Source: Terriglobus tenax (GTDB taxonomy: Bacteria; Acidobacteriota; Terriglobia; Terriglobales; Acidobacteriaceae). From it: a stretch of DNA of 64,000 nt. The notes under the pieces were generated by a model. The model was not told where the DNA came from, ran no database searches, and was given only the letters and a program-made list of their open reading frames with translations. The translations under genes and the position numbers were made by a program. Location: assembly GCF_025685395.1 (NCBI RefSeq), contig NZ_JAGSYA010000004.1, forward strand, positions 1,240,001 through 1,304,000, written 5' to 3'. Positions within the stretch are counted from its first letter, which is position 1. Each line of letters opens with the position of its first letter. This document shows positions 37,055 to 40,118 of this stretch, in pieces.

Positions 37055-38302
37055 CTACGCCGTCTTGCCGCGGCCTGTCTTCATTTTTTCCATACCGGCA
37101 TACAGCCACTGCAGCTTGTGGACACCCCACAGAGCCTCGTCCATGTGCGGCGTCTCATCCGTCTCATTCCAGCCGGAAGCCTCGCCCAGCATGCTCGACT
37201 GCACCACGATGCCGTCGCGGCGTGCCAGCACATTCACGCCACTGAAGTACATGGCATACGGCTGGCAGGGCTGCGGAATCAGCCACGCAATCTGACCGCG
37301 CACCGGCGTAATCGACTCGTCCTTCCACAGCGCGCGGCCGCCATAGCCCGGGCAGTTGATGATCGTCTTCTGCGGCAGTGCAGCCAGGTCCGCGGGCGAA
37401 TGGAACTCCACCGTCTCAATCTTGCCGCCTGCAATCAGAAAATCATTCATCAACTGGCGCGAGTAATCGGCCACATTGAACAGCAGCGTGCTGCTGCGGC
37501 GCACCGTCTTCGCCGGGAATGGATGTGATCCCGCAGGCATATCCTCGCTCGCTGCGGCAATGTCGCTGATACGGTCGGCATAGCGCGCAAACTCGCGATG
37601 CTGGCTCTCCGGCACCGGCTTCATCTTCAGCTCCTCCGGCTCATCCATCAGGAAATCGCGCATGTAGTACTGGTCAAAGTACTCAATCGGATTGCCCGGC
37701 ATACCCAGGTAGCTCTGGTACATGGACCAGCTGGTGCGTGCCATCTTCTCCCACGTGTCGCCGAAGTTCGGCGCGGCCGCGTTGGCCAGCGCAATGCGCG
37801 AGTCCGGAGTCCAGCTTCCCGTCGCGCGTGCCGAACGCACATACGGTGGCCGCTCCTTCGCATAGATGGTCACCCTGGCGCCTTCGCGCTGCGCCGTAAT
37901 CGCTGCCGTCAGGCCAAGCGCGCCGCAGCCAATCACGGCAATGTCCTTGTCGCCGTTGCTGGCCTTCATGGCGTTTTCAACAGCCACAGCCGCCGAGCCC
38001 CAGCTCAAGGACCAGCCGCTGCCGCCATGTCCATAGTTGTGCGACACAATCTTGTCGCCTACCTTCTCCACCTCAAGCCTTGGACCAGCCGCGCGGAACG
38101 GGCGCAGGCACACCGTCGTGCGGAAGATCCTGTTCTCGTGCGCGCGGATCGGCACCAGCTCCGGAAGACGGTCATAGAAAGGAAGCGTCGGAGCCGTAGC
38201 GCCGGTTGCCGCGGTCACCGGCTTCTTCGCACACCCGGCCAACCCCATCATGCCAAACCCCGCAAACGCACCCGACTGCCGCAAAAATTCACGACGCTTC
38301 AT
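37055..38302 (-). CDS. Exported FAD oxidoreductase, circularly permuted D-amino-acid-oxidase fold
   Basis: The protein has 415 residues. The N-terminus KRREFLRQSG...LAGC is a Tat-like signal with a lipobox, predicting a periplasmic lipoprotein. FAD is bound by the Rossmann motif IAVIGCGALGLTAA (121-134). In D-amino-acid oxidase the segment R-P-x-R...RLE...HNYGHGG.G.....WG is C-terminal; here CLRPFRAAGPRLE (65-77) and HNYGHGGSGWSLSWG (88-102) come before the Rossmann motif, and the chain ends where the block would begin. The middle matches in order: STLLFNVADYSRQL, TIINCPGYGGRALW and PVRGQIAWL. It should oxidise an amino acid or related amine with oxygen or another acceptor. Substrate is unknown. 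Confidence 0.85.
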   Translation of the reverse strand: MKRREFLRQSGAFAGFGMMGLAGCAKKPVTAATGATAPTLPFYDRLPELVPIRAHENRIFRTTVCLRPFRAAGPRLEVEKVGDKIVSHNYGHGGSGWSLSWGSAAVAVENAMKASNGDKDIAVIGCGALGLTAAITAQREGARVTIYAKERPPYVRSARATGSWTPDSRIALANAAAPNFGDTWEKMARTSWSMYQSYLGMPGNPIEYFDQYYMRDFLMDEPEELKMKPVPESQHREFARYADRISDIAAASEDMPAGSHPFPAKTVRRSSTLLFNVADYSRQLMNDFLIAGGKIETVEFHSPADLAALPQKTIINCPGYGGRALWKDESITPVRGQIAWLIPQPCQPYAMYFSGVNVLARRDGIVVQSSMLGEASGWNETDETPHMDEALWGVHKLQWLYAGMEKMKTGRGKTA

Positions 38303-38403: not shown

Positions 38404-39609
38404 TTACATCACATTCCTCCGGGTGGTGAGGTCCAGCAACGGGCCGGTCATCGCAGTGGTTATCACCGCCATGCACACCAGCAACGTAAAGACCGGAGCA
38501 TTCAAAATTCCTTCGCGATAGCCCGCATTCAGCACAATCAACTCCACCAGGCCACGGGTATTCAGCAGCACTCCGATACGCAACGCCGCGGGCCACGCTG
38601 TCCCCATCGCACGCGCCCCCAGCATCGCTCCGGCAACCTTACCCGTCACGGCAGCGGCCAGCACCAGCAGAAGATCACCCCATCCTCCTGCATGGAACAG
38701 CTCCGGCCGCATCCGCAGACCGGTCAACGCAAAGAACGCAGGAAGCGTCCACGCGGAGACGCCACGGAAGAGATGTTCCACCTTGCCTTGCACGCGTTCG
38801 CGCGGCACACACATGCCCGCAAGAAACGCCCCGAAGAAAAGATGAATACCCAATGCATTCGTCACCCATGCACTGGCCGCAGGCAGCACAATCAGCACCA
38901 CCCACCACAGCCCATCCGGCAGCGAGACGCGCCGCAACTGCGGCCGCACAACTTCGGTCATCAGCAAGGTGAACGCAAGCAGCAGGCCAAGCCGCACCAT
39001 GATCTCTGCGGCCCCACCGCCATGCAGCACCGCCAGCAACGCGGCCAGCACACACCATGCCAGGGCATCATTCATGGCGGCGCTCAGCAACGACTGTTGC
39101 GCCACCTCCGCATCCACTGGCCGCCCCATCGCCTCACGATCGCTCAGAATCCGGGCCAGCACCGGCAATGCCGTAATGCTCATCGCCACCGCCAGAAAGA
39201 TCACGAAGACGCCGGTCTTCGCTGGCTCCACGCCATAGTGCCGCAGCAGCAAGGGAGAGATCAGAGCCCCCAGGGCGAAGGGCAGCAACATGCTTCCCGC
39301 TGTCGTTGCGGCAACCCGCCGCACATCGCGGGCAAGCTCACGCAGCTCAAGCTCCGACCCTACAAGAAAGAGAAACGCTACCAGGCCAACATTGCTGACG
39401 TACTCCATCCCCTGCAGTCGGTCAGGTCGAAACAATATCGTGGTCATTGCGGGCAGCAGGCGACCCAGCGCTACCGGCCCCAGCAGGATGCCTCCTGCAA
39501 TCTCGCCGATCACACGCGGCTGCCGCAGCCGCTGCGCCACCCAGCCGCAAAACCATGTAGCCACCATCACCACTGCAAGTTGCAGCGGCAGCAAACGCAG
39601 GATCGTCAT
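38404..39609 (-). CDS. CPA2-type cation/proton antiporter
   Basis: The protein has 401 residues from ATG 39609, overlapping the stop of the small gene upstream (ATGA). About 12 membrane helices; PRVIGEIAGGILLGPVALG and VAFLFLVGSELELREL are the KefB/GerN-type signatures, with NDALAWCVLAALLAV carrying the conserved Asp of helix 5. The soluble nucleotide-binding TrkA-N domain of KefB/KefC is absent, so it is of the shorter Na+/H+ type. It exchanges Na+ or K+ for protons across the inner membrane. Confidence 0.9.
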   Translation of the reverse strand: MTILRLLPLQLAVVMVATWFCGWVAQRLRQPRVIGEIAGGILLGPVALGRLLPAMTTILFRPDRLQGMEYVSNVGLVAFLFLVGSELELRELARDVRRVAATTAGSMLLPFALGALISPLLLRHYGVEPAKTGVFVIFLAVAMSITALPVLARILSDREAMGRPVDAEVAQQSLLSAAMNDALAWCVLAALLAVLHGGGAAEIMVRLGLLLAFTLLMTEVVRPQLRRVSLPDGLWWVVLIVLPAASAWVTNALGIHLFFGAFLAGMCVPRERVQGKVEHLFRGVSAWTLPAFFALTGLRMRPELFHAGGWGDLLLVLAAAVTGKVAGAMLGARAMGTAWPAALRIGVLLNTRGLVELIVLNAGYREGILNAPVFTLLVCMAVITTAMTGPLLDLTTRRNVM

Positions 39610-40118
39610 CAGGCCTGCTTCCGCTTCCGTTCGCGGCGAGCGCCCAGCACCAGCCCAAGCTCGGTCAGCAACAGGATCACGCCCACAGGAATCAGTCGCG
39701 CCGCCAGCATACCGGCCCAGTTGATGCGCATCCCGCTGATCAGCTCCGCCGCACCCAGAAGCACACCCACAACGAACAGACTGCCTCCGCCCCATCGCCG
39801 GAACTTCGCGGAGATCTCGCTGCGGTTTGCCTGGGACCCGGCAAACTCCGCCAGCGGAGCACCCACCATGCCGCGCCGGTCATAGATGCGCGCAATCATC
39901 TTCGGCTGCGCCGCAACCGCCTCGCGCGCATACTGCTCGCCCTCTGCCAGGCTTCCGGCAACCACACAGAAACCGGCGTCCGGGGTCTCCGTGCCATTCA
40001 GTTCTTCCGGGCGGTCTCCCGTAAACAACACGGCCGCTTCACCATCCGCCATCCGCTCATTCCAGTTCGCGGGTTGATGAGACGAGTCGTACAGGGGGAG
40101 AATGCGAAGCGTGCTCAT
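39609..40118 (-). CDS. Two-helix membrane protein of unknown function
   Basis: The 169-residue product starts at ATG 40118, with no good Shine-Dalgarno. Residues 1-115 are soluble (STLRILPLYDSSHQPANWN, AGSLAEGEQYAREAV, ARIYDRRGMVG), and two helices follow (about 115-165; GGSLFVVGVLLGAAELI and LIPVGVILLLTELGLVLG) before a basic tail. The soluble part repeats EEGEQYAREAV-like pieces found in small membrane proteins, but the family is not recognised. Its stop overlaps the antiporter ATG, so it may regulate or accompany that transporter. Confidence 0.65.
   Translation of the reverse strand: MSTLRILPLYDSSHQPANWNERMADGEAAVLFTGDRPEELNGTETPDAGFCVVAGSLAEGEQYAREAVAAQPKMIARIYDRRGMVGAPLAEFAGSQANRSEISAKFRRWGGGSLFVVGVLLGAAELISGMRINWAGMLAARLIPVGVILLLTELGLVLGARRERKRKQA

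Follow-up and report, generated by a model that had tools for sequence, protein, structure and literature searches.

We analyzed a 64,000-nucleotide stretch of Terriglobus tenax DNA (contig NZ_JAGSYA010000004.1, positions 1,240,001 to 1,304,000; here called the window) and found that the gene at 37055..38302 on the (-) strand encodes what is almost certainly a natural circular permutant of the GHGG-type D-amino-acid oxidase (DAAO) family. Translation of this gene (415 aa, ATG start, stop included) gave the same open reading frame (ORF) as an earlier note on this DNA, which had proposed a circularly permuted, exported DAAO-like enzyme. The permutation was borne out by profile-profile comparison, rotation controls, the single copy of the displaced block, trees, and a DAAO-like predicted model. 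As read from its sequence, the product is a new, natural, circularly permuted form of a known family, in which the last strand-loop-helix segment of ~60 residues is moved ahead of the Rossmann strand and the chain is opened between the helix that precedes this segment and the RPxR strand. Our favored reading as a whole, that this is a permuted periplasmic lipoprotein exported by twin-arginine translocation (Tat) that oxidizes D-amino acids or related amines and probably reduces a cytochrome, has a probability of roughly 0.78.

In the window protein, the canonical C-terminal DAAO segment occupies residues 58 to 116 (37955..38131, - strand), as located by sequence alignments, profile comparison, and the model, and it contains a strand, RPxR, RLE, HNYGHGG, WG, and a helix. 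Residues 65 to 102 (bases 38110 to 37997), CLRPFRAAGPRLE...HNYGHGGSGWSLSWG, are the block that known DAAOs carry C-terminally. A five-residue linker (residues 115 to 119; 37946..37960, - strand) joins the former C terminus to the former N terminus, with the helix of the model ending at 114 and the next strand starting at 120. The flavin adenine dinucleotide (FAD) Rossmann strand and GxGxxG motif, the canonical N terminus, follow at residues 120 to 134 (37901..37945, - strand; sequence and Pfam), with IAVIGCGALGLTAA as residues 121 to 134. Farther downstream, TIINCPGYGGRALW and PVRGQIAW keep the usual DAAO order, and the chain ends with a helix (residues 387 to 414; 37061..37144, - strand) that precedes the RPxR strand in canonical DAAO. 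Three statements of the earlier note thus held: the DAAO block lies ahead of the FAD Rossmann motif (translation, phmmer, and profile comparison), the middle motifs are in normal order (translation), and the chain ends soon after the region that leads into the block (hhalign and the model). Each segment is present once, the order is rotated, and the new termini fall in a loop, as in a natural circular permutant. The protein shares with the GHGG-type DAAO family the Rossmann GxGxxG and the RPxR...HNYGHGGxGxxxxWG block with the carboxylate Arg, but its block is N-terminal, and it becomes collinear with the family only once rotated.

A phmmer search against the PDB placed three stretches of the window protein on DAAO 7ct4 in rotated order (residues 59 to 115 on 320 to 376, 119 to 153 on 24 to 59, and 312 to 341 on 211 to 242) and placed residues 66 to 107 on 282 to 326 of human DAAO 2du8. 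The family profile likewise matched most DAAO and D-aspartate oxidase (DASPO) entries in two or three stretches, with the order swapped in both alignments listed. We then compared a 78-row alignment of permuted proteins (A3) with six canonical Acidobacteriota DAAOs, two of them near-identical. In natural order, hhalign aligned query columns 65 to 347 with template columns 4 to 260 (E 5.2e-37) and columns 8 to 62 with 263 to 316 (E 4e-16); after rotation at the junction, one main match joined columns 2 to 347 to 4 to 315 over 308 columns (E 2.1e-53). For single sequences, the mean best-domain score was 73.0 bits in natural order, 115.7 after junction rotation, and 80.2 after random rotations; junction rotation beat natural order in 92/96 nonredundant proteins and all three random rotations in 84/96. 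Order-bound tools (Pfam DAO and VIA-align) cover only about two-thirds of the chain as one piece, and in the window protein the best Pfam DAO (PF01266) stretch was residues 120 to 386.

Motif order was scored at 145 loci and gave 126 calls: 111 with the block before the Rossmann motif, 9 with an N-terminal block and a Rossmann motif missed by the regular expression, and 6 in canonical order. The count of 120 permuted ORFs includes 24 near-duplicates (repeat fetches of one gene). Six loci (L039, L082, L086, L100, L102, and L120) were missed by the first regular expression and lie outside the counts of 120, 96, and 142; a recheck found that each of them has an N-terminal block. No motif-order call was obtained for L093 or L162. 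A contig scan found at least 565 relatives, and among the best 80 of these, 74 were permuted, 5 more were so by a looser regular expression, 1 (L093) gave no call, and none was canonical.

Permutation usually arises via duplication and then truncation, a route that would also fit an extra copy in place of a permutation, in which a stray C-terminal block is fused ahead of an otherwise normal DAAO that has a diverged block of its own. Exactly one GHGG block was found in 142/142 permuted ORFs (repeat fetches of one gene included), so duplication is excluded in this sample, and the second intact copy that the earlier note had named as the sign of a duplication was found in none of them. The chain also stops at the helix preceding the missing block, and the best Pfam DAO stretch ended early, at profile position 273 to 299 of 353 in five permuted relatives and at 284 in the window protein, versus 350 of 353 in one canonical DAAO. 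With no sampled ORF carrying both blocks, the extra-copy explanation is refuted for these ORFs and is very improbable overall. An assembly artefact or chance motif order is more improbable still, since the same order is repeated in many separate records, including the complete Terriglobus roseus record (L036), and we found no support for either among the records compared.

The proposal in the earlier note that homologues with an N-terminal block might form one clade held in two trees and failed in a variant with long-branch outgroups. A tree of de-permuted sequences put its 64 permuted rows and its 10 canonical rows on opposite sides of one branch with support of 100/100; canonical rows L137 (a near copy of L136) and L197, L237, and L242 (in which the regular expression found no block) were kept out. 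In a tree of the shared, never-rotated segment with three outgroup rows, the permuted rows again lay on one side (98/95), in a run that warned of unsettled bootstrap and long branches meeting and from which outgroup rows L179, L147d, L233, and L235 had been removed after the first result was known. With seven other DAO-family outgroup rows, the same segment split the permuted rows (two changes; one group in 41% of bootstraps), and L179 had a branch length of 4.6. Because the outgroup removal was decided after the first result, a single origin of the permuted family rests mainly on the 100/100 tree and is likely but not proven. Three permuted subfamilies were seen: subfamily A, which has Tat signals, contains the window protein, and comes from Acidobacteriota and Alphaproteobacteria; subfamily B, with Tat signals and a DAAO-like active site; and a cytosolic-looking group from rhizobia and Nonomuraea, one member of which (L177) has a signal.

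Permuted relatives came from Acidobacteriota, Alphaproteobacteria, and one actinomycete. Among the 61 genomes nearest to that of the window, 20 matched: 15, all from the window's genus and its own genome among them, had a match of at least 57% identity spanning most of the protein, and one genome of its class had a match at 41% identity. At E 1e-10, 44/396 genomes of the phylum matched, with a few canonical DAAOs and fragments among them, as did 20/398 Pseudomonadota genomes. Record titles of the best 80 relatives were mainly Acidobacteriota and Alphaproteobacteria, with two from a Rhodanobacteraceae bin, and plasmid records added permuted genes from Kozakia, Niveispirillum, Rhizobium, Bradyrhizobium, Mesorhizobium, and the actinomycete Nonomuraea. 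All four plasmid matches with a listed gene were annotated as FAD-dependent oxidoreductase. A canonical-profile search matched 25/247 Acidobacteriota genomes, of which 7 have canonical GHGG DAAOs (L190 to L196), 16 have proteins permuted by coordinates, and 2 have other DAO-like genes. The same search matched 13/249 Pseudomonadota genomes, 10 of them via permuted genes already found by the permuted search, and the GHGG motif was absent from the five canonical-order Pseudomonadota matches checked. Three acidobacterial genomes (G099, G305, and G329) each carry three or four copies from the permuted family. In one genome of the window's genus, only remnants of the gene were seen (L143, G006:C15:158700-162500, and L144, G006:C3:23500-28500): one contig has a piece of the N-terminal part, and a second contig has pieces of the C-terminal part that are out of frame with one another.

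The Tat-like lipoprotein signal (KRREFLRQSG, LAGC) described in the earlier note is present at the N terminus (residues 1 to 24; 38231..38302, - strand), with RRxFL, a hydrophobic stretch, and a lipobox Cys. By regular expression it is widespread in relatives, with a twin-arginine motif in 129/142 permuted ORFs and a lipobox-like motif in 96/142, and G23 and C24 are invariant in a 13-row alignment (A1). The enzyme would thus cross the membrane folded via Tat and then sit anchored as a periplasmic lipoprotein.

The predicted model has a DAAO fold with a predicted local distance difference test (pLDDT) score of 92.4, and its best structural matches were DAAO and DASPO. Its secondary structure around the block consists of strands at residues 59 to 70, 78 to 81, and 84 to 88 and a helix at 100 to 114. 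The permuted chain would adopt the ordinary DAAO fold and bind FAD. An initial model built on the 13-row alignment was of poor quality (pLDDT 61.9) and was excluded from fold searches. Assignment to the styrene monooxygenase family (9qi9) was rejected, the similarity being limited to the Rossmann part and a short stretch. NCBIfam matches of the permuted proteins were all far under cut-off, and the Pfam model that they matched is the generic DAO family.

We examined the active-site positions in an alignment of 74 rows. R67 (38102..38104, - strand) corresponds to position 283 of human DAAO 2du8, judged from where the aligned range begins, and Arg is present there in 74/74 rows; we take Arg283 of DAAO to bind the substrate carboxylate. 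The FAD-motif glycines G125, G127, and G130 are also present in 74/74 rows. At the position that presumably corresponds to Tyr228 of pig DAAO, which we take to be the active-site tyrosine, the window protein has N357 (37232..37234, - strand). Tyr is present there in 8/10 canonical, 17/25 subfamily B, and 5/5 cytosolic rows (22/30 for the permuted subfamilies other than A) but in only 5/34 subfamily A rows (N13 S8 Y5 G4 A2, two others). The G-G-T next to this position is mostly retained elsewhere and is replaced in subfamily A by Q-x-x, with the Gln at the first position invariant (34/34). Since the Tyr and GGT are replaced and the Arg is invariant, subfamily A appears to have a changed substrate pocket with the carboxylate anchor kept, and the substrate of the window subfamily may differ from that of DAAO. 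The available part of PMC6697736 gave no support for the residue roles assumed here.

The window protein is probably an FAD amine oxidoreductase. Its substrate would be an amine that bears a carboxylate, most likely a D-amino acid or a derivative of one, and oxidation at the alpha C-N bond would give an imino or 2-oxo acid; the chance that its substrates are D-amino acids or close derivatives is about even. Gene neighborhoods (cytochrome c, a deacylase relative, and a thiamine diphosphate [ThDP] enzyme) led us to an amino-acid oxidoreductase. It is somewhat doubtful that the window subfamily instead acts on another class of substrate, for example N-terminal-residue peptides, N-acylated amines, or cyclic imino acids, or is no longer catalytically active. 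The loss of Tyr in 29/34 rows and the change of GGT to an invariant Gln in 34/34 suit this alternative, as other permuted subfamilies mostly keep both, and so do the peptidases, TonB receptors, or 5-oxoprolinase beside some loci; the invariant carboxylate-binding Arg and FAD glycines speak against it, and a deacylase link in one lineage suits D-amino acids.

We scanned 116 loci with enough downstream sequence, repeat fetches included, for ORFs with CxxCH, and found 6 matches and 110 with none. One of the six (L124) proved by sequence to be a methyltransferase-like ORF and was dropped. A cytochrome c ORF lies 10 nt or less downstream at 5/116 loci, in Kozakia and four metagenome-assembled genomes (MAGs) of Alphaproteobacteria. 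These five loci represent two lineages, with enzymes ~50% identical and cytochromes ~40% identical. In the MAG lineage, the cytochrome c gene is followed by an amidohydrolase with a signal-like N terminus; N-acyl-D-glutamate deacylase and D-aminoacylase are among the PDB relatives of this amidohydrolase. In Kozakia, the cluster further contains a beta-lactamase-fold hydrolase, an S9 peptidase, a TonB receptor, and a DadA-like protein that scored just below its NCBIfam cut-off. Because cytochrome c adjoins the enzyme in two lineages, a dehydrogenase is at least as favored as an O2 oxidase, and in subfamily A electrons would more likely pass to a c-type cytochrome than to O2, as in a periplasmic amino-acid dehydrogenase; the odds for cytochrome c as the acceptor are slightly short of even. 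A periplasmic enzyme of the same permuted fold that uses O2 and makes H2O2 like classical DAAO is unlikely. It would agree with the nearest structures and profiles, which are oxidases, and with the lack of an adjacent cytochrome in the window and at most loci, but not with the cytochrome c neighbors in two lineages of the window's own subfamily.

On plasmids of Rhizobium and Bradyrhizobium, the gene of the cytosolic permuted enzyme has an FAD-binding oxidoreductase gene on one side (of the berberine-bridge type in Rhizobium) and a ThDP enzyme gene on the other. For the Rhizobium ThDP enzyme, the best NCBIfam match was indolepyruvate/phenylpyruvate decarboxylase, with a score below cut-off. A decarboxylase-like neighbor is expected if the permuted enzyme yields a 2-oxo acid. 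These plasmid clusters (L148:6473-10696, L149:6360-10687, and L151:7735-10597, the last, from Mesorhizobium, with the permuted DAAO and ThDP genes only) have transposases near two of the three and possibly belong to a specialized-metabolite pathway. The Mesorhizobium permuted gene (L151:7735-8798) is annotated as two overlapping coding sequences split within the Rossmann motif and looks frameshifted. At Sphingobium-type loci (L060, L062, L068 [downstream], and L055), a 5-oxoprolinase/hydantoinase gene (~1200 aa) adjoins or lies near the permuted DAAO; the copies of L055, L060, and L062 are 85 to 88% identical to that of L068. The window neighbors scanned encode a Na+/H+ exchanger, a DUF2911 protein, an aquaporin, and an M24 peptidase. 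An ORF of ~462 aa lies directly upstream on the same strand both in the window (38404-39795, - strand; the Na+/H+ exchanger) and in a 78% identical relative (L026), where the gap is 7 nt by ORF call and cotranscription in that clade is possible.

Several observations weigh against the favored reading. The window protein itself did not gain from rotation (single-sequence hidden Markov model best domain, 59.1 natural versus 57.2 rotated); the gain is visible in relatives and in the family profile, not in this protein alone, possibly because the middle of its chain has diverged too far to be bridged. Residues 58 to 115 were unmatched in VIA alignments to DAAO and DASPO, a result expected of sequential structure aligners, which are unable to test a permutation, and one that carries little weight alone. 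A confident model supports the DAAO-like fold, and the packing of the block at the isoalloxazine is a prediction rather than a demonstrated feature. Subfamily A mostly lacks the active-site Tyr and has Q-x-x for GGT, leaving the substrate and even the activity of the window subfamily uncertain. No cytochrome or deacylase was found among the four window neighbors scanned, and the cytochrome and deacylase links are confined to few loci. No neighbor was widely shared, the largest cluster covering 7/70 loci in a comparison weakened by longest-ORF gene calls, which are often in the wrong frame in GC-rich DNA.

The window protein resembles DAAO and DASPO (pig 1kif, human 2du8 and 6rkf, Rhodotorula 1c0i, and Rasamsonia 7ct4) in its Rossmann FAD motif, PxRGQ, the RPxR/RLE/HNYGHGG/WG block, the Arg283 equivalent, and its best structural matches; unlike them, it is rotated, has a Tat lipoprotein signal, and belongs to a subfamily mostly without the active-site Tyr and GGT. 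Canonical DAAOs of the same phylum (L136 to L141 and L196) share its motifs and are collinear with its family once this is rotated, but their block is C-terminal and they lie on the opposite side of the tree. DadA feeds electrons from D-amino acids into the respiratory chain, as proposed here for the window enzyme, but DadA has the canonical order and is a separate DAO subfamily. NCBIfam DadA models scored 21.6 bits on the window protein (cut-off 494), over the Rossmann part only, and 17.8 (cut-off 383). LucY (PMC4408115) is an FAD protein examined as a circular permutant, but it is a MurB and was permuted in the laboratory. An Asaia paper (PMC12502724) includes the D-amino acid oxidase A0A060QKK3 in its list of released proteins. 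The earlier note knew of no published description of this arrangement, and our literature searches, covering titles and abstract beginnings among the matches listed, with most subscription papers outside coverage, also found no permuted DAAO.

A structure that confirms this topology would establish a natural circular permutation within a model flavoenzyme family, widespread in bacteria under a generic name, and would reveal where the DAAO chain tolerates opening without loss of the fold. Canonical enzymes, permuted enzymes with a DAAO-like active site, and permuted enzymes with a changed active site form a natural series for studying the roles of topology and of the Tyr. More tentatively, one ancient permutation of a DAAO may have founded a large family that outnumbers canonical GHGG enzymes in the sampled Pseudomonadota and Acidobacteriota, made up mostly of periplasmic Tat dehydrogenases that would pass electrons directly to c-type cytochromes from D-amino acids freed outside the cytoplasm by D-aminoacylase-like enzymes. 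The window enzyme offers a candidate with which respiration of D-amino acids in the periplasm of soil and water bacteria could be tested, and, if true, this would be a D-amino-acid respiratory route independent of both cytoplasmic DadA and peroxide-making DAAO.
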